From NCBI GenBank assembly GCA_030672545.1, contig DAOVGF010000065.1:1-33278 (forward strand): a DNA stretch of 33,278 nt, written 5' to 3'. The stretch comes from Candidatus Aerophobota bacterium (GTDB lineage Bacteria > Aerophobota > Aerophobia > Aerophobales > Aerophobaceae). Below the pieces are notes generated by a model that worked only from the letters and a program-made list of their open reading frames with translations, ran no database searches and was not told the DNA's origin. The position numbers and the translations under genes are program-made. This document shows positions 36-31,823 of the stretch, piece by piece; within the stretch, counting starts at the first letter, position 1; each line of letters starts with the position of its first letter.

Positions 36-116
36 GTGAGCGTAGCGAATCGCATACACCACGTTATACGGTACTGCTGGCATCCCCTTTCAATCTCCAC
101 AAACCTTTTATGCTGT

Positions 117-134
117 GTTATATGAAGTGGCGGT
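117..134. repeat. Left inverted repeat flanking the R-M cassette (GTTATATGAAGTGGCGGT)
   Basis: Reverse complement matches 3237-3254 (ACCGCCACTCCATATAAC) at 17/18 positions. Confidence 0.85.
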
Positions 135-141
135 TTGATCT

Positions 142-2241
142 TTACATCATTTTGTCTATTTCTATTAATGATTCAACCTCTTCTATAACTTTCTTCCAGA
201 CCTTCAAAAGTTCTTTACGCATAGATATAATCTTTCCAATTTCATTAGATATTTGCTTCTGAACTTCTTTTGGTGGAAGCAGCACAAGCACCTTTGATAA
301 ACCTTCTATAGAAATTGCAGGAATAGCATGACCCGTCATGAGACGTCTAACCTGCCGCAAAAAATATTCTGCACGAAGGTATGATAGAAGGAAAAGCGGT
401 TCTACGCTATGAATATTACGGAGTACAACAAAACCATTAGAGCAGATTGCTCCATCCTCATCTTCGGTAATCAGTGCGGTTGCATGCCTGTATGTGCCAG
501 TGCTTGCTCCAGATATAGCTGTGATAATGTCGCCCGTCCGTACACGATAAGTTGCCCTTGATGGGGCATCATATGGTTTAATTACCTGCTGAGAAACCAC
601 TTGCATTGTACGCGCGTCAACATCAGAAATGGCGATATATCTTATTTCATTATTGGAGGTCGAACGGAAATCGTCAGTTTCTTTGAGAATATCTGCCAAT
701 TCGCCAAGGGGTTTTGCTCCATTTACTTGCAACATTTCAAGAAGCTTTCTATCTTCTGGTCTATAATGTTCTACGTCCAGACGCGTATTTAACGATTTCT
801 CAGAAACTGTGTAAATTCTCTCCTTATTTATTTCAAGTCCGTTATTTTTGAACCTGTTGTATTCAGAAACAATCTCCTCTATATCAGTATGAATAATAGG
901 TAGTCCTGATTTTGCTCTTACCAGTTTGCCATCGTGAGTTTTCTTGTAAATAGGTTTCCCTTTTACATCATAGCCAATCTTTTGTATTTGAGCCATGAAT
1001 ACTTTTTCTGAATCGGCAGGCAGTTTTTGCAAAAAGAGTAGAGAGGTCTTGATTCCCGTGCCATAGGGTATGAAAGCTTCCTGTGGAATTGACACAACAC
1101 CTAACACTTTAGTTTGGGAACGAATCCAGGACCTAATATGGCTATTGGTAATGTTTTGAAGTAAGCCATCTGGTAAGACAATTGCTATACGTCCACCTGG
1201 GCGAAGTAGCTTTAAACACTTCTCAATAAACAGAATTTCTGGTGTTTGTCCTGCGAGAACATTTCTCGTCACCTCCCAGTCACCATTTTGGGTTTTATTC
1301 CATTTACGAGCGAACAGATAGTTCTTTAGAATTTTTTGCTCTTTCATTTTACCTTTGCTGCCAAATGGTGGATTGGTGAGAACAACATCAAAAACATTAT
1401 TAAATTGCTCATTCTCTAACAGAGCATTTGTACAAATAATCTCTGTACCCACACCGCCTTCAAATACAAGGCGGACCGTTGCAGATAAAGCTACATCGGG
1501 ATTAAAATCAATTCCATAAATTTGCTCACGAATATAGTGCGTCTTACTAATATTGGGATTACTTCGGCAAACGTACGAGATGGTTTGAATGAGGAAGCCG
1601 CCACTTCCACAAGCAGGGTCAATTACCTTCTCATTTGGCCTTGGGACTATCATTTCAACAGCCAATCTCACAATAGGATGAGGTGTGAAAAACTCACCAC
1701 GATCACCACGTTGATGTCGATAGACAAATGCCTGGAAGGCTTCTCCCTTAATATCAGCAGGTGTTTGGGTAAGATTCATATACTGTAATCGCCCAACAAT
1801 ATAGGCCAATGTGAGAGGTTTAAGCTTTATCGAGTCGTCCGAGAATAAAGAAGGATATTTGTTTCGTACTGTATCAAATAGTTTGTTAACACGAACTTCA
1901 AAACTACTGAGTCTATTTGCAAGCATGCTTCTATATTCGCTTGAAGTAATACCAAATTGTAAGCCGACCTTTGTGGTATTCTGTTCATCGTAAAGTTTTA
2001 TCAAAAGTAGTTTTACAATTTCGTGAAATATCTTATCCTTAAGTAGACCTTCGTTAGCATAAACGTAATTGTGGCATTCATCAAATATAGCAGAGAGATT
2101 GTGAGCAGGACGCAATTCTTTACTCCGAGGCAAGTTTTCAGGAAGAAAACTTGCCTCGGAGTAAAGAAGTTGCTGTTCTCTAATTTTCCATTTTTGCGGG
2201 ACAGGAAATATATATTTGTGCTTTCTAGTCTTTTTCTTCAT
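142..2241 (-). CDS. N6-adenine DNA methylase (type I HsdM-like) with C-terminal single HsdS-like target-recognition domain
   Basis: Motif I region VIDPACGSGGFL, motif IV DVVLTNPPFGSKG, GEFFTPHPIVRLAVEMI typical of N6_Mtase; C-terminus IRYIAISDVD...RVRTGDIITAISGASTG...LLPPKEVQKQISNEIGKI typical of HsdS TRD/conserved regions. Confidence 0.9.
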   Translation of the reverse strand: MKKKTRKHKYIFPVPQKWKIREQQLLYSEASFLPENLPRSKELRPAHNLSAIFDECHNYVYANEGLLKDKIFHEIVKLLLIKLYDEQNTTKVGLQFGITSSEYRSMLANRLSSFEVRVNKLFDTVRNKYPSLFSDDSIKLKPLTLAYIVGRLQYMNLTQTPADIKGEAFQAFVYRHQRGDRGEFFTPHPIVRLAVEMIVPRPNEKVIDPACGSGGFLIQTISYVCRSNPNISKTHYIREQIYGIDFNPDVALSATVRLVFEGGVGTEIICTNALLENEQFNNVFDVVLTNPPFGSKGKMKEQKILKNYLFARKWNKTQNGDWEVTRNVLAGQTPEILFIEKCLKLLRPGGRIAIVLPDGLLQNITNSHIRSWIRSQTKVLGVVSIPQEAFIPYGTGIKTSLLFLQKLPADSEKVFMAQIQKIGYDVKGKPIYKKTHDGKLVRAKSGLPIIHTDIEEIVSEYNRFKNNGLEINKERIYTVSEKSLNTRLDVEHYRPEDRKLLEMLQVNGAKPLGELADILKETDDFRSTSNNEIRYIAISDVDARTMQVVSQQVIKPYDAPSRATYRVRTGDIITAISGASTGTYRHATALITEDEDGAICSNGFVVLRNIHSVEPLFLLSYLRAEYFLRQVRRLMTGHAIPAISIEGLSKVLVLLPPKEVQKQISNEIGKIISMRKELLKVWKKVIEEVESLIEIDKMM
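2116..2168. repeat. Perfect inverted repeat with 24-bp arms and 5-nt loop inside the methylase ORF
   Basis: TTCTTTACTCCGAGGCAAGTTTTC (2116-2139) aggaa GAAAACTTGCCTCGGAGTAAAGAA (2145-2168). Confidence 0.95.
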
Positions 2242-2244
2242 AGT

Positions 2245-3138
2245 TCAATCCTCGTCTTCATTTGCTATCATGTACCTGTTATCAACTTGCATGTCATCCT
2301 CGTTGACGGCATCTTGCGGGTTTGATGTGTCACAAACCTCGTTCAAGTCTTCATACCAATCGTCAGCAATGTGCAAAGTTCCTTTCCCTTGCTCATCAAT
2401 AAAAACAAAACCCATGACATAGTTCTGTTGAAGATGGTTTGGGTCATCTCCAGATGATTCGAGATTTTGGGGGTTGGCAAATAGAAATTTGTGTTGTGGA
2501 TACCGAAGAACAATATCAATAGCGATAACATTGAACTCGTCTTTGCGTGGAGTTGCCTGCGTCCGTTCACTCACCCCGGATCTACCTGAAACAAAGTGCG
2601 TTTCTAAGACTTTTACTTTTGACATAACATAATTCAAACGCTCTTCAATCATATCATTGATTTGGTCCCGTGTGTAACCACGCAATCTATGAATAGCTTT
2701 CGCCTTCTCAGTTTTGCGCTTGGACACATATTTCTGGACTTCTTCGTACTCGTAAAGATTGCAAGAATACTCGTTCTGGAATTTAGGCAGATTTTTATGA
2801 ATCCAATTAATTACTTGTTGCTCAATATTTTGCTTACGATTTATCCATGGAATTTTGTCAGCATGAGTGATGAAAAAATTTTTAAGGTTTCCGAAATTAT
2901 AAAGCCTATGCCATTTTTCTGAATTAGATTTTACTCCCTTTGACTCTATTACATACCAATAAGAAGTGTCAGATTTTCTGAAATAAAAATCGCCATGATG
3001 TTGGAGGTGCTTTTTACCCTCCCATTTCTCTCTGATTCTTTTTACTTCAAAGTTGTATTCTTCTTCCAGCTTCTTCTTCAACAAAAGTTCAGTTATGGAA
3101 CCACTAACATAGCCTTGAGCATTAGGACTAAGTTTCAA
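2245..3138 (-). CDS. Putative restriction endonuclease partner with PD-(D/E)XK-like signature
   Basis: GDFYFRKSDTSYWYVIESKG fits D-(x)n-ExK; 3-nt spacing to the methylase start indicates cotranscription. ORF-track start is TTG and the frame stays open upstream. Confidence 0.6.
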   Translation of the reverse strand: MKLSPNAQGYVSGSITELLLKKKLEEEYNFEVKRIREKWEGKKHLQHHGDFYFRKSDTSYWYVIESKGVKSNSEKWHRLYNFGNLKNFFITHADKIPWINRKQNIEQQVINWIHKNLPKFQNEYSCNLYEYEEVQKYVSKRKTEKAKAIHRLRGYTRDQINDMIEERLNYVMSKVKVLETHFVSGRSGVSERTQATPRKDEFNVIAIDIVLRYPQHKFLFANPQNLESSGDDPNHLQQNYVMGFVFIDEQGKGTLHIADDWYEDLNEVCDTSNPQDAVNEDDMQVDNRYMIANEDED

Positions 3139-3236
3139 TGCTTCAAGAAATATTTCCAGTGTCGTTTTGAATACCTGCTCGACAAACCTTTTTATCTTCT
3201 CATAAATATTTATGTGAATTCCCCTTTAAATTTGAT

Positions 3237-3254
3237 ACCGCCACTCCATATAAC
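3237..3254. repeat. Right inverted repeat flanking the R-M cassette
   Basis: ACCGCCACTCCATATAAC; reverse complement of 117-134 with one mismatch. Confidence 0.85.
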
Positions 3255-3599
3255 TCAAAATAACCGAACTACTTCGTTTATGCTCCCAAATTGGACTGTC
3301 TTGCATGAGTTCCTTTTTCTTGCGAAATTTCTTTACATTATCTCCAATCATATTTGTCCGTGAGATTCTTTCCATATTCTCATAGCATAATCAGAATAAC
3401 ATTCTTTGACATCCACTATTATACTAAATCCAGGATAATTTACAATTAAATTTAGTTAGTCTTTGATACCAATCTAAAAGGGTGGGCAAATTTTATTTTT
3501 TCTTCCTGCTTCACCCAAGAAGGGAAAGTAGACTTGGAGTGCAGACAACGGAAGACAGCTGAAGCCTAGTCGGAGCTACCTTGAAAAGCGTGAGAGAAG

Positions 3600-4761: not shown

Positions 4762-4770
4762 GCGGATTGT

Positions 4771-4872
4771 AATGAACGAGAGAAACCAAACAAACTACAA
4801 GAACCAAAGGAACAGTTTCAATGGAAAGAACGAGAGGAACCAGAGGAACGGAATGAACCAAATGAACCAAAA
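4771..4872. repeat. Degenerate purine/A-rich short-period repeat array (GAACNANA / GAACCAAA units)
   Basis: Repeated GAACGAGAGaAACCA, GAACCAAAGGAAC, GAACGAGAGGAACCAGAGGAACGGAATGAACCAAATGAACCAA in a non-coding interval. Confidence 0.7.
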
Positions 4873-4888
4873 TATGCCGAGTGCCATT

Positions 4889-4989: not shown

Positions 4990-6291
4990 ATGCTTCAGTA
5001 CAGTAAATGGGTGTTAGTTTTTATTTTGGCGTTGGTGGCTGTCTCAGTCTGGGCGATTTACCCTTTGCAAAAAAAGATAAAGTTAGGATTAGACTTAAAA
5101 GGAGGAGTTCATTTAGTTCTTGAGGCAGATACCAGCCAGATTCCGGAGTCTGAGGATGTTAAATACGCTGTAGATACAGCTATTGAAATTATTAGAAACA
5201 GAATTGATCAGTATGGAGTGGTGGAACCTAGCATAACTCACCAAGGGGAAAAAAGAATCGTGGTTGACCTACCCGGAGTTGAGGATCCTCAAGGAGCAGT
5301 GGAACTTATTGGAAAAACAGCTCTTCTGGAATTCAAATTAGTGGACGAAAAGGGAGACGTAAGTAAAGCTCTGGAGGGAGATATTCCCCTGGATGATGAA
5401 ATACTTTACCAGTACCGGGAGGGGAAGTCTTCACCTTATCTCATCAAGAAAGAAACCTTACTTACCGGAAGTACCATAAAAGATGCCCGGGTAGAAATAA
5501 ATCAATGGGGACAACCCTATGTTGCCCTGGAGTTCAACTCAGAAGGAGCCAAAAAATTTGAGGAGATTACAGGAAGACATATTGGAGAAAGACTGGCTAT
5601 TATCCTTGATAATGCTATCCAATCTGCTCCGGTGATTAAAACTCGCATACCGGGAGGTAAAGCCGTAATTGAGGGAAACTTTACTATGGATGAAGCCAGC
5701 AAGTTGAGAATAGTTCTCAAGAGTGGTGCTCTTCCTATTCCTTTTAGCATTATACAAAACACCACCGTTGGTCCTTCGCTGGGTCGGGATTCCATTCAAA
5801 AGGGACTTCTTTCGGGAATAATTGGCCTTCTGGTGGTGCTGGTATTTATGGGACTTTACTACAAAAAAGCTGGTTTGATTGCTGACTTAGCTTTGCTTCT
5901 CAACTTACTTTTCATATTGGCTGCTCTGGTTGCTCTGAAAGCAACCCTTACTCTTCCCGGAATAGCCGGAATTATCCTGATCATCGGGATGAGTATCGAC
6001 GCTAATGTGATCATCTTTGAAAGAATCAGGGAAGAATTGGAGAAGGAAAGGGCACCTCGGTCTGCTTTAGATGCTGGGTACAACAAGGCCTTGAGGACTA
6101 TCCTGGACGCCAATATCACCACTTTGATTACCGCCCTCATTTTGTTTCAATTTGGCAGTGGTCCCATCAAGGGATTTGCCACTACTCTTTCTATTGGCAT
6201 ACTGGCCAGTTTGTTTACCGCCATAGTAGTTACCCGGGTGATTTTCAACCTTCTGCTGGCAGGACGACCAACTAAAACCTTAAGTATCTAA
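4990..6291 (+). CDS. secD: Protein translocase subunit SecD
   Basis: LGLDLKGGVHLVLEAD, GIAGIILIIGMSIDANVIIFERIREEL; RBS AAGGAGAG upstream. Confidence 0.95.
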   Translation: MLQYSKWVLVFILALVAVSVWAIYPLQKKIKLGLDLKGGVHLVLEADTSQIPESEDVKYAVDTAIEIIRNRIDQYGVVEPSITHQGEKRIVVDLPGVEDPQGAVELIGKTALLEFKLVDEKGDVSKALEGDIPLDDEILYQYREGKSSPYLIKKETLLTGSTIKDARVEINQWGQPYVALEFNSEGAKKFEEITGRHIGERLAIILDNAIQSAPVIKTRIPGGKAVIEGNFTMDEASKLRIVLKSGALPIPFSIIQNTTVGPSLGRDSIQKGLLSGIIGLLVVLVFMGLYYKKAGLIADLALLLNLLFILAALVALKATLTLPGIAGIILIIGMSIDANVIIFERIREELEKERAPRSALDAGYNKALRTILDANITTLITALILFQFGSGPIKGFATTLSIGILASLFTAIVVTRVIFNLLLAGRPTKTLSI

Positions 6292-6305
6292 AAAAAGAGG
6301 ATGAA

Positions 6306-7427
6306 ATGAAGCTTTTTAGGAAAACTAATATTGATTTTATCGGGAAAAGAAAAATTGCCTTAACCATCTCAGTAATTGTGTTAGCTGTAGGAATAATCTC
6401 TTTGGTAATGAAAGGAGGACCACGATTAGGCTTGGATTTCACCGGAGGAGTTGAAGTTCATTTACAATTTGAAAAGTCTCTTTCGATTACCCAGGTAAGA
6501 GCAGGATTATCTTCTATTGGTTTGCAGCAGGCAATCATTCAAAAGTACGGAAAAACTACGGATAACCTCGTCCTCATTCGCTACCGGGTTGAGCAAATAG
6601 CCGAGGAAGCTGCTTCGCAAATTATCAACCTTCGGGAAAAGACGGGTAAACTTACCAGTCTAGAAGAATTAAAACAGCTTCCCGCCCTAGAAAGAATAGG
6701 CTATGAAAATCTGATAGGCTTATTTACCGTTGACCCGACTGATAAAGAAAGGATAAATCTCAATCAAATAGATCAGAAGTCCTTAACTGCTCGAATTCGG
6801 GGAATCACTCACTTAAAAGCCGCCGCTGAGATTGAAAAAGCAGTGAAGGCAGAAGTGGGAGAGGGTAATCCCTTCCAGATCATCAGCCTAGATATAATCG
6901 GGCCTAAAGTGAGTAAAGAACTACAAAAAAGTGCTGTCTTAGCCGTAATTTTTGCTTTAATCGGGATGCTCATTTATATTTCCTGGCGCTTTGAATTCAC
7001 CTTTGCCATAGGTGCGGTAATTGCTTTGGTTCACGATGTGGCTATCAGCGTAGGAGCTCTCTCGCTGGGTAATTTTGAGTTCACCCTCCCAGTCATTGCT
7101 GCTCTTATGACTATAATTGGCTACTCTTTAAACGACACCATTGTCGTCTATGATAGAATTCGAGAGAATACGAAGACTTTCCGAAAACGGAAAATGTCTT
7201 ACAGGGACGTCATTAACCTGGGTATCAATCAATCACTATCCCGAACTGTAATTACCTCACTGACTACCTTTATCGTTGTCTTAGCTCTGTTCGTCTGGGG
7301 TGGTCCGGTTATTCATGGCTTTGCCTTTGCCCTTTTGATAGGAGTTATCGTGGGAACTTATTCCTCCAGTTTTGTAGCTGCACCAGTAGTTTATCAGTGG
7401 GCCCAAATAAGGACTACCAAAAAATGA
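6306..7427 (+). CDS. secF: Protein translocase subunit SecF
   Basis: GLDFTGGVEVHLQF, SLNDTIVVYDRIREN; directly downstream of secD. Confidence 0.95.
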   Translation: MKLFRKTNIDFIGKRKIALTISVIVLAVGIISLVMKGGPRLGLDFTGGVEVHLQFEKSLSITQVRAGLSSIGLQQAIIQKYGKTTDNLVLIRYRVEQIAEEAASQIINLREKTGKLTSLEELKQLPALERIGYENLIGLFTVDPTDKERINLNQIDQKSLTARIRGITHLKAAAEIEKAVKAEVGEGNPFQIISLDIIGPKVSKELQKSAVLAVIFALIGMLIYISWRFEFTFAIGAVIALVHDVAISVGALSLGNFEFTLPVIAALMTIIGYSLNDTIVVYDRIRENTKTFRKRKMSYRDVINLGINQSLSRTVITSLTTFIVVLALFVWGGPVIHGFAFALLIGVIVGTYSSSFVAAPVVYQWAQIRTTKK

Positions 7428-29819: not shown

Positions 29820-29984
29820 CCCATCTAAAAAAAGCCTCTTTTGCCCTATTACGCAAGTTCCAAATTTTATCTCTTTTTAATAGACCTTTCATCAAATATG
29901 GCTGAACCTACGATAAATGTATTAACACCTACATTGGTCATATCCGTAATGAACTTCTCATTCACGCTTCCATCTAGCTCCCTC
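29820..29984 (-). pseudogene. Frameshifted 3' remnant of an epimerase paralogous to 31113-31823
   Basis: Minus strand encodes DGSVNEKFITDMTNVGVNTFIVGSAIFDERSIK, aligned with DGSVNEKSIVDMANAGVNIFVIGSAIFDEKGLK; a 1-nt insertion in the A-run then breaks the frame; nucleotide similarity continues to the stop region. Confidence 0.85.
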
Positions 29985-31082
29985 ATCCAGCATAGTTAAG
30001 TAGTTTTCCACAGATACATAGTTAGCTATAGAATTCCCTGAGCCTAAGGCATAACCCCCACCAGGCATACATTTATCCAAGATATCTCTCACGTACTTAC
30101 GTAATTCGCTTTCCTTTAGCCTGCACAGTTTATCCATATCTACTCCACCCAACGCAGCTATCCTATCTCCGTATTTTTTCTTGAATTGGGTAACTGGTGT
30201 TACCAAATCTTCAAAGGAATGTTTAGCATCTATTTTTACATCTTGAATTAAATCCTCTATTATGGGCTCTATATAACCACAAGTATGGAGGAAATATAGA
30301 ATATTGTGGGTGTGAGCTAATTGAGCGATTTTCTTATGCCAGGGCAGAACATATTTCCTCAAAAACTCTGGAGAAAAAAGGGTAGCAGTTTTAAAACCCA
30401 TATCATCTCCCTGAAAAAAACCGATTAATTTTTCCAACCCGATAATTTTTTCATACCATCCATAAATTAACTCTCCCACTTTATTAAATGTTGCTTTAAC
30501 TAACCCAGGATTATCGTATAGAAGATAGCAAAGATTTTCATATCCCAAAAGTTCATTTTCGACAACCTCTAAAATACCCATACAAGGACAACCAAAAATT
30601 CCCATTCCTTCCGGCAAATTTTTAGAAATAAATTCAAAGGACCACAAGTTTATTTTATCAAGGGAAGGCCAGGGATATTTTTCAAAATCTTCCCAGGAAC
30701 TTATCATTCCCTTGCCTTCCTCAGCCCAGTTTCTCTCCTGAGAAAGAGAATCTCTATCTTTTCCTTTCCTCACTTTCTTTTTGAAAACTAAACCTGCTGA
30801 AAGGCGGAAGTCTCCACTAACCCGAATTCCATCATAACCTAAACGATACCAGTACTCAATATAATTTTTTAGATACTCCTCTTCAGCTTTTCTATCGCCA
30901 AGAGAAGGTTCTATCCATTTCTTTCTTAGTTTCCTCTCTGTTATATACCTAATAACTTCCTTATCAATGTGAATTTCTATAAAGGGAACCCGTCGAGAAG
31001 CTTTCCTTCTTAGAATAACTTCTTTAAAGTCTTTTATATTTGGCTCAGGATGTTTCAGTGGAATTTTCATTGCCATAATCAC
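29958..31082 (-). CDS. URO-D superfamily protein (uroporphyrinogen decarboxylase-like; not necessarily HemE)
   Basis: URO-D-like layout: GIFGCPCMGILEVVENELLGYENLCYLLYDNP, FFQGDDMGFKTATLFSPEFLRKYVLPWHKKI, HTCGYIEPIIEDLIQDVKIDAKHSFED. Confidence 0.8.
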   Translation of the reverse strand: MIMAMKIPLKHPEPNIKDFKEVILRRKASRRVPFIEIHIDKEVIRYITERKLRKKWIEPSLGDRKAEEEYLKNYIEYWYRLGYDGIRVSGDFRLSAGLVFKKKVRKGKDRDSLSQERNWAEEGKGMISSWEDFEKYPWPSLDKINLWSFEFISKNLPEGMGIFGCPCMGILEVVENELLGYENLCYLLYDNPGLVKATFNKVGELIYGWYEKIIGLEKLIGFFQGDDMGFKTATLFSPEFLRKYVLPWHKKIAQLAHTHNILYFLHTCGYIEPIIEDLIQDVKIDAKHSFEDLVTPVTQFKKKYGDRIAALGGVDMDKLCRLKESELRKYVRDILDKCMPGGGYALGSGNSIANYVSVENYLTMLDEGARWKRE

Positions 31083-31112
31083 TTCCTTCTATATTTTGCG
31101 GTAAAAATGAGT

Positions 31113-31823
31113 TCAAATTCTTGTAGGGTTCCATTTAGAAAAAGCTTTTTCTGCCCTATTACGTAAGTTACAGATTTTATCCCTCTTAAGACCCTTTTCA
31201 TCAAATATAGCTGAACCTATGACAAATATATTAACGCCTGCATTGGCCATATCAACAATAGATTTCTCGTTTACACTCCCATCTGCTTCAATATCTATAT
31301 TAAGTCTCCTTTTCTGAATTATTTTTCTAAGACAAAGGGCTTTGTCCAGTACTGCTGGAATATAATCAGCACTTTTTACTCCGGGAGTCTTGCCACCGGG
31401 GTTCACCATCATCAGTAAAACTATATCTAAATCCGTTAGTATATTTTCAATCGCACATATAGGAGTAGCTGGATTTAAAGCAACTCCCGCCCTTCCACCT
31501 TCTTCTTTAATTTCCTGGATTACCTCATAGATATTTGTGCATGATTCAGGGTGAACACAGATAATATTCCCCCCTGCTTTGATAAATACTTCCACGTATT
31601 TTATAGGATCAATCATCATCATGTGAACTTCAAAAGGAATAGAAGTCAAAGATCGCAAGGCCTTAATTTCTAAGTAGTTTAGCCCAATACTGGGTACAAA
31701 ATTTCCATCCATTATGTCAAAATGCATTCGATCTACGCCAGCCTTTGTCAAAACTTGAACCTCTTCCCCAAGTCTGGTTAAATCAGCACACATCATTGAG
31801 GGAGAAATCTTTATTAAACCCAT
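31113..31823 (-). CDS. Ribulose-phosphate 3-epimerase family protein (AlsE-like hexulose-6-phosphate epimerase possible)
   Basis: IKISPSMMCADLTRLGEEV...HFDIMDGNFVPSIGLNY; start at 31823 with AGGAGG upstream preferred over 31880. Confidence 0.88.
   Translation of the reverse strand: MGLIKISPSMMCADLTRLGEEVQVLTKAGVDRMHFDIMDGNFVPSIGLNYLEIKALRSLTSIPFEVHMMMIDPIKYVEVFIKAGGNIICVHPESCTNIYEVIQEIKEEGGRAGVALNPATPICAIENILTDLDIVLLMMVNPGGKTPGVKSADYIPAVLDKALCLRKIIQKRRLNIDIEADGSVNEKSIVDMANAGVNIFVIGSAIFDEKGLKRDKICNLRNRAEKAFSKWNPTRI

Follow-up and report, generated by a model that had tools for sequence, protein, structure and literature searches.

The stretch of DNA examined here (the window) is a whole contig of 33,278 nt (G000:C29:1-33278), so its left edge probably coincides with the end of the contig. 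Near that edge, two minus-strand genes together span about 3.1 kb: one for a small nuclease-like protein (the partner); and, directly downstream, one for a methylase that carries a half-size recognition domain (MS). An initial annotation had placed a two-gene, restriction-modification-like pair at 142-3138. Both open reading frames are present, as are the features cited for them: DPACGSGGF, NPPF and a single HsdS-type recognition domain in MS; and GDFYF-x8-YVIESKG in the partner.

The partner, previously given 297 residues, proves to be longer. Its relatives begin MNIYEKL... with ATG, about 25 codons upstream of the earlier TTG start, and that frame continues in the window as INIYEKI..., where ATA (3211-3213) occupies the position at which nearly all relatives have ATG. 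Because the relatives start at this ATG and the frame is shared, the 5' end of the gene is placed at 3213. The gene most likely spans 2245-3213 and encodes 322 residues from a presumed ATA start. Initiation at ATA is expected to be weak. Given this apparent start codon, the nuclease may be weakly made in the source organism; the ATA may also be an assembly error.

Two repeats lie farther along the window: a degenerate tandem repeat upstream of a secD-like gene (4768-4876); and stretches of 57 and 99 nt in neighbouring open reading frames (29821-31284), repeated at 79-82% about 1310 nt apart, and probably reflecting a tandem paralogue.

Table 1. Positions of the two genes, their motifs and domains, and the flanking elements in the window
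Feature	Position	Strand	Basis
MS protein, 699 aa, gamma-class N6-adenine methylase (HsdM-like) with one HsdS-type TRD	142..2241	-	ORF, domain matches, AF2 model
SAM-binding motif I DPACGSGGF, MS residues 208-216	1594..1620	-	Sequence; D208, P209, A210, C211, G212 and F216 invariant in 39 aligned members
Catalytic motif IV NPPF, MS residues 290-293	1363..1374	-	Invariant in 40/40 aligned members
Single TRD (Methylase_S), MS residues 511-679	205..711	-	Pfam match; structure comparison
C-terminal 41-residue helix after the TRD, MS residues 658-698, candidate dimerisation zipper	148..270	-	AF2 model; cf. PMC3874165
Partner, 322 aa, PD-(D/E)XK-like endonuclease (predicted)	2245..3213	-	Relatives' start, alignment, AF2 model
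E42 of partner, helix before the core sheet	3088..3090	-	Invariant 42/42; AF2 model
D75 of partner (GDFYF)	2989..2991	-	Invariant 42/42; AF2 model
E90-x-K92 of partner (VIESKG)	2938..2946	-	Both invariant 42/42; AF2 model
C-terminal beta-rich domain of partner, residues 196-314, with QATPRKDEF, HKFLFANP and HLQQNY	2272..2628	-	Alignment, AF2 model
Left half of attC-like site after the MS stop: R'' CATATAAC and L'' ACAGCATAAAAGG	104..124	-	Identical to the same half of the complete L003 site
GTTATATGGAGTGGCGGT upstream of partner; its GTTATATG is the exact complement of the 3'-end R''	3237..3254	-	Repeat search
Second attC-like half (GCATACACCACGTTATACG) reaching the contig end	1..70	.	Read by eye; single copy in source genome

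The MS protein

MS matches the Pfam families N6_Mtase (6e-39) and, once, Methylase_S (2e-6). Its AlphaFold2 (AF2) model (pLDDT 84.8) retrieves HsdM-type methylases and BsaXI RM in a fold search, and the nearest solved relative of its TRD is the first TRD of HsdS in 3okg/5ybb. Within the 5' end of the coding sequence lies a perfect 24-nt inverted repeat with a 5-nt loop (2116-2168); the residues encoded there, about 25-42, have low model confidence.

Among NCBIfam models, MAD2 (347 bits, cut-off 720) and MAD5 (61 bits, cut-off 400) fit the two halves of MS best. These matches, and the contig end at the left edge of the window, might mark the pair as the remnant of a Type I or MADS system, the other genes of which lie past the contig end or have been lost. 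This is the least probable of the explanations considered, and hardly a plausible one: both scores fall under the curated cut-offs; no HSDR_N domain was detected in the source organism's draft genome (89% complete); and wherever relatives have full flanks the pair stands alone, as it does on a complete Thermus plasmid, which bears the same pair and also lacks a detectable HSDR_N domain. Membership in Type I and in MADS was rejected on the scores and the missing genes.

The initial annotation had seen no translocase beside the pair, and allowed for an hsdR gene just beyond the left edge. No HsdR was found on the 33,278-nt contig, and the genome search extends this result to the draft assembly; the region past the left contig end is unreadable.

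The partner protein

The AF2 model of the partner (41 sequences; mean pLDDT 87.5, pTM 0.82) begins its core with a helix at residues 30-52, which includes E42, followed by strands at 55-60, 76-80 (directly after D75), and 86-93 (with E90-x-K92). This is the alpha-beta-beta-beta layout of PD-(D/E)XK nucleases, with D75, E90 and K92 in place. The Thermus sequence was left out of the sequence sets for structure predictions. All four residues, E42, D75, E90 and K92, are invariant in the 42 aligned members, across phyla. The partner is very probably a member of the PD-(D/E)XK nuclease superfamily. Residues 196-314 form a second domain, a candidate DNA-recognition domain of the partner's own.

Structure prediction supports the nuclease fold that had been proposed from the GDFYF-(n)-YVIESKG motif, with the qualification that a Foldseek search with the whole chain returned no match at E <= 0.001. 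Nuclease folds came up with probabilities of only 0.12-0.51: Hjc (0.12), I-Ssp6803I (0.25), and a phage Holliday junction resolvase (0.51). The missing structural match would be in line with MS as an orphan-type methylase and its partner as a regulator or inhibitor with the PD-(D/E)XK fold, an explanation that we consider highly unlikely. Four catalytic-type residues that stay invariant in 42 of 42 members across phyla argue against it, as does the pattern of gene decay described below.

No Pfam, NCBIfam, PADLOC or PHROG model matches the partner; a profile search of PDB sequences gave no match; and no relatives were found in viral and phage collections. Library matches to Prefoldin_3 (0.003), Nmad2, and FokI (0.05) were rejected as sub-threshold noise. 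Assignment to RE_TdeIII was also rejected. The weak match traces to a single member, L022 (17 bits, cut-off 27), and true TdeIII genes sit elsewhere in the genomes concerned. We read the partner family as an uncharacterised family of endonucleases, undescribed in the libraries, in a system whose layout is already known.

Distribution and gene decay

Scanning genome contigs turned up 54 loci, spread over many phyla and including archaea. Carriers include Cyanobacteria, Chloroflexi, Bacteroidetes, Spirochaetes, Campylobacterota, and Planctomycetes; the archaeal ones include Woesearchaeota and Altiarchaeales. With the window counted, the partner lies directly upstream of MS and on the same strand in 51 of 56 distinct sequences. 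The five exceptions are L024, at a contig end; L020, L052, and L056, for which no MS was found; and L046, with a divergent MS fragment at a contig end. At the 30 loci measured, the partner stop and the MS start are separated by -86 to +83 nt.

The complete Thermus thermophilus plasmid pTthSNM1-1c carries a partner homologue (35-41% identical in two alignments) beside an MS gene that is 42% identical; the two are annotated as a hypothetical protein and an 'N-6 DNA methylase'. Among the neighbouring genes of the relatives, none is conserved as a third member of the system and none resembles HsdR. In several other carriers HsdR does occur, but elsewhere in the genome and not adjoining the pair. 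With the two genes adjacent in 51 of the 56 sequences, their recurrence is not chance: on the evidence of gene order, partner and MS are a real two-gene system, and the co-occurrence that the initial annotation had named as a check holds in nearly every genome.

The two genes decay unequally. A broken partner accompanies an intact MS at 10 loci, and clear reverse cases number zero (P = 1e-5 by gene length alone; 3e-4 with the doubtful L020 and L046 counted against). Locus discovery went by way of the partner gene, so this outcome is not one to which the search is biased. Some frameshifts may be assembly errors; such errors should strike the longer MS gene more often. Preferential loss of the partner fits a toxic nuclease guarded by its methylase, which counts against a regulatory role for the partner. 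At L020 (6941-7927) the partner frame is open although no MS lies nearby, which counts against the Type II reading proposed below; the frame does, however, deviate at conserved positions (NAQVY, QTTPRKDEF), and may be a solitary copy in decay.

Cassette-like ends

A 37-nt inverted repeat (78%) flanks the pair, at 108-144 and 3227-3263. In 1500 shuffles of the flanks, the score of its best part was never reached. The repeat has CATATAAC as its core downstream of the MS stop and GTTATATG as its core upstream of the partner; complementarity between GTTATATG and R'' is as expected for the putative 5' end of an integron cassette. Four relatives from different phyla (L003, L028, L018, and L051) have an almost identical ACCGCCACTTCATATAAC after the MS stop. 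Two of these, L003 and L028, have a complete attC-like site, with an inner stem score of 11 and a GTTAT core; shuffles gave none. Some other matches from the attC scanner (L023, L020) look like terminators or chance. The integron integrase TIGR02249 scores above the NCBIfam cut-off in 8 of the 39 carrier genomes tested, L003 and L028 among them, and in the source organism's draft genome no match exceeds it.

The window itself has only the left half of the site. About 100 nt further the contig ends, in another attC-like half. There, the contig begins within the half site: a hairpin, CCAAATTGC...GCAATTTGG, and then GCATACACCACGTTATACG. The contig start is perhaps an assembly break at an integron-like repeat. 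In L003, the complete attC is followed (5940-6500) by a small gene pair that resembles, by eye, a BrnT/BrnA toxin-antitoxin cassette.

Terminal repeats of a transposon were considered, and set aside for attC because of the complementary CATATAAC and GTTATATG cores and the complete sites in L003 and L028. Part of the partner-MS family appears to move as integron cassettes. The pair in the window is likely such a cassette as well, with incomplete ends: the complete attC of integron cassettes lacks its right half here. Restriction-modification and other defence systems are already known in integron cassettes, as the available parts of PMC12444791 and PMC9892861 describe. The window pair has attC-like ends in common with these; the partner-MS family is not named in those parts of the two papers. 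New here are the inverted repeats that flank the pair, and a 3' flank that matches half of an integron attC-like site, complete in two relatives with an integrase.

A proposed mechanism

The pair very probably functions in restriction-modification. If so, the nuclease likely recognises DNA independently of MS. Taken together, we think it fairly probable that this is a two-gene Type II system, partly cassette-borne, in which MS acts as a dimer and a cognate PD-(D/E)XK endonuclease recognises the site itself. The proposal builds on what computation provides: domain make-up, pairing, catalytic residues, fold layout, asymmetric decay, the absence of HsdR from the draft genome, and cassette-like ends.

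In this mechanism, MS would probably dimerise through its C-terminal helix. The target of the dimer's two inverted TRDs would then be an interrupted palindrome (half-site, gap, inverted half-site), in which the dimer would methylate one adenine per strand. The upstream gene would encode the cognate PD-(D/E)XK endonuclease, most likely dimeric as well, which would itself recognise that site by means of its conserved C-terminal domain. The partner is predicted to cut unmethylated invading DNA with neither ATP nor a translocase, presumably in phage defence. In at least part of the family, both genes would travel together as an integron gene cassette.

The evolution of the TRD bears on where the nuclease obtains its specificity. 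Type I TRDs are commonly swapped by recombination (PMC3874165). In MS, identity of the S domain tracks identity of the catalytic domain (r = 0.98 over pairs, which are non-independent), and within clades the TRD shows roughly the same degree of conservation as the catalytic domain; it is not hypervariable. In this it departs from Type I TRDs, which are exchanged freely, and a TRD locked in this way fits a nuclease that has a fixed specificity of its own.

Alternatively, the partner might lack specificity of its own and be recruited by an MS dimer that reads the site for both methylation and cleavage, a motor-less split enzyme. By analogy, this might be a Type IIG or IIB enzyme whose nuclease domain is a separate chain. 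We regard such an arrangement as rather unlikely. When the two MS clades are compared, likeness is 73% (nuclease part) and 60% for the two conserved domains of the partner, and only 36% for the TRDs. A nuclease docking on MS would be expected to show such a gap, so recruitment by MS keeps a place in the argument; the gap could reflect a nuclease that takes its specificity from MS. Against this stand three points: besides its nuclease core, the partner has an entire further conserved domain (residues 196-314); a TRD common to both activities would be free to vary, and this one is not hypervariable; and the endonuclease is separate in the described Type II systems with a fused half-S (PMC3874165). 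There is no clear evidence that partners were swapped between the MS clades: 3 label changes suffice for the partner tree, and only 1 is forced by starred branches.

Comparison with known systems

The initial annotation had proposed the fusion of a methylase with a half-S and a separate small PD-(D/E)XK-like nuclease, lacking a translocase. Domain matches, the AF2 model, and the genome search support that description. It had also held that the arrangement fits no known class. This does not stand: M.XmnI, M.DrdI, and M.XcmI are homodimeric gamma-methylases with a fused single TRD (PMC3874165, Table 3), and they serve Type II systems with interrupted palindromes and a separate endonuclease (PMC3874165).

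The window pair resembles these systems. MS joins a gamma-class N6-adenine methylase and one TRD in a single chain, with a probable C-terminal dimerisation helix (here the predicted helix 658-698); a separate, predicted nuclease gene adjoins it in 51 of 56 sequences; and there is no translocase. The likeness is to the described layout, the sequences of R.XmnI, R.DrdI and R.XcmI being uncompared, and the pair differs in that the partner family is without a library match and part of the partner-MS family has integron-cassette ends.

Other classes agree in part. The Type IIH or 'Type 1 1/2' systems AhdI, PshAI, and BsaBI (PMC4081073, PMC3874165), the unfused counterpart, likewise combine a Type I-like methylase, a half-size S, and a Type II endonuclease, but their M and S are separate chains that in MS are fused. 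Type IIB and IIG enzymes (BcgI, BsaXI, HaeIV) share the HsdM-like methylase with TRD, and BsaXI RM is among the fold matches of MS; their nuclease is joined to the methylase, whereas in the window pair it is a separate open reading frame. Type I systems have HsdR, of which none was found near the pair or in the draft genome, and an S subunit with two TRDs, where MS has one. MADS supplies the best NCBIfam models for the MS halves, its MAD2 methylase and MAD5 specificity subunit, but at scores far below the cut-offs; moreover, MAD2 and MAD5 are separate proteins, and no other MADS genes were found.

Bower et al. engineered a half-S fusion as a laboratory-made step from Type I to Type IIG, and regard M-half-S fusions as a stage in the evolution of Type IIG (PMC6158711), a view that would suit a partner recruited by MS. 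Carried further, the partner would be a trans-acting, motor-less subunit that docks on the MS dimer, and the pair a naturally occurring split form midway from Type I to Type IIG, kept in bacteria and archaea and partly spread by cassettes; this seems to us unlikely. As a natural case of the fusion made by Bower et al. (PMC6158711), the pair makes it directly testable whether DNA is read by the nuclease itself or by a TRD borrowed from the methylase.

The pair is compact (about 3.1 kb), occurs on a plasmid, and is present in many phyla and archaea. With its endonuclease family unannotated, such pairs can be miscounted as orphan methylases. We read partner and MS together as a Type II system of known layout, in the manner of XmnI, DrdI, and XcmI, with an unannotated endonuclease family.
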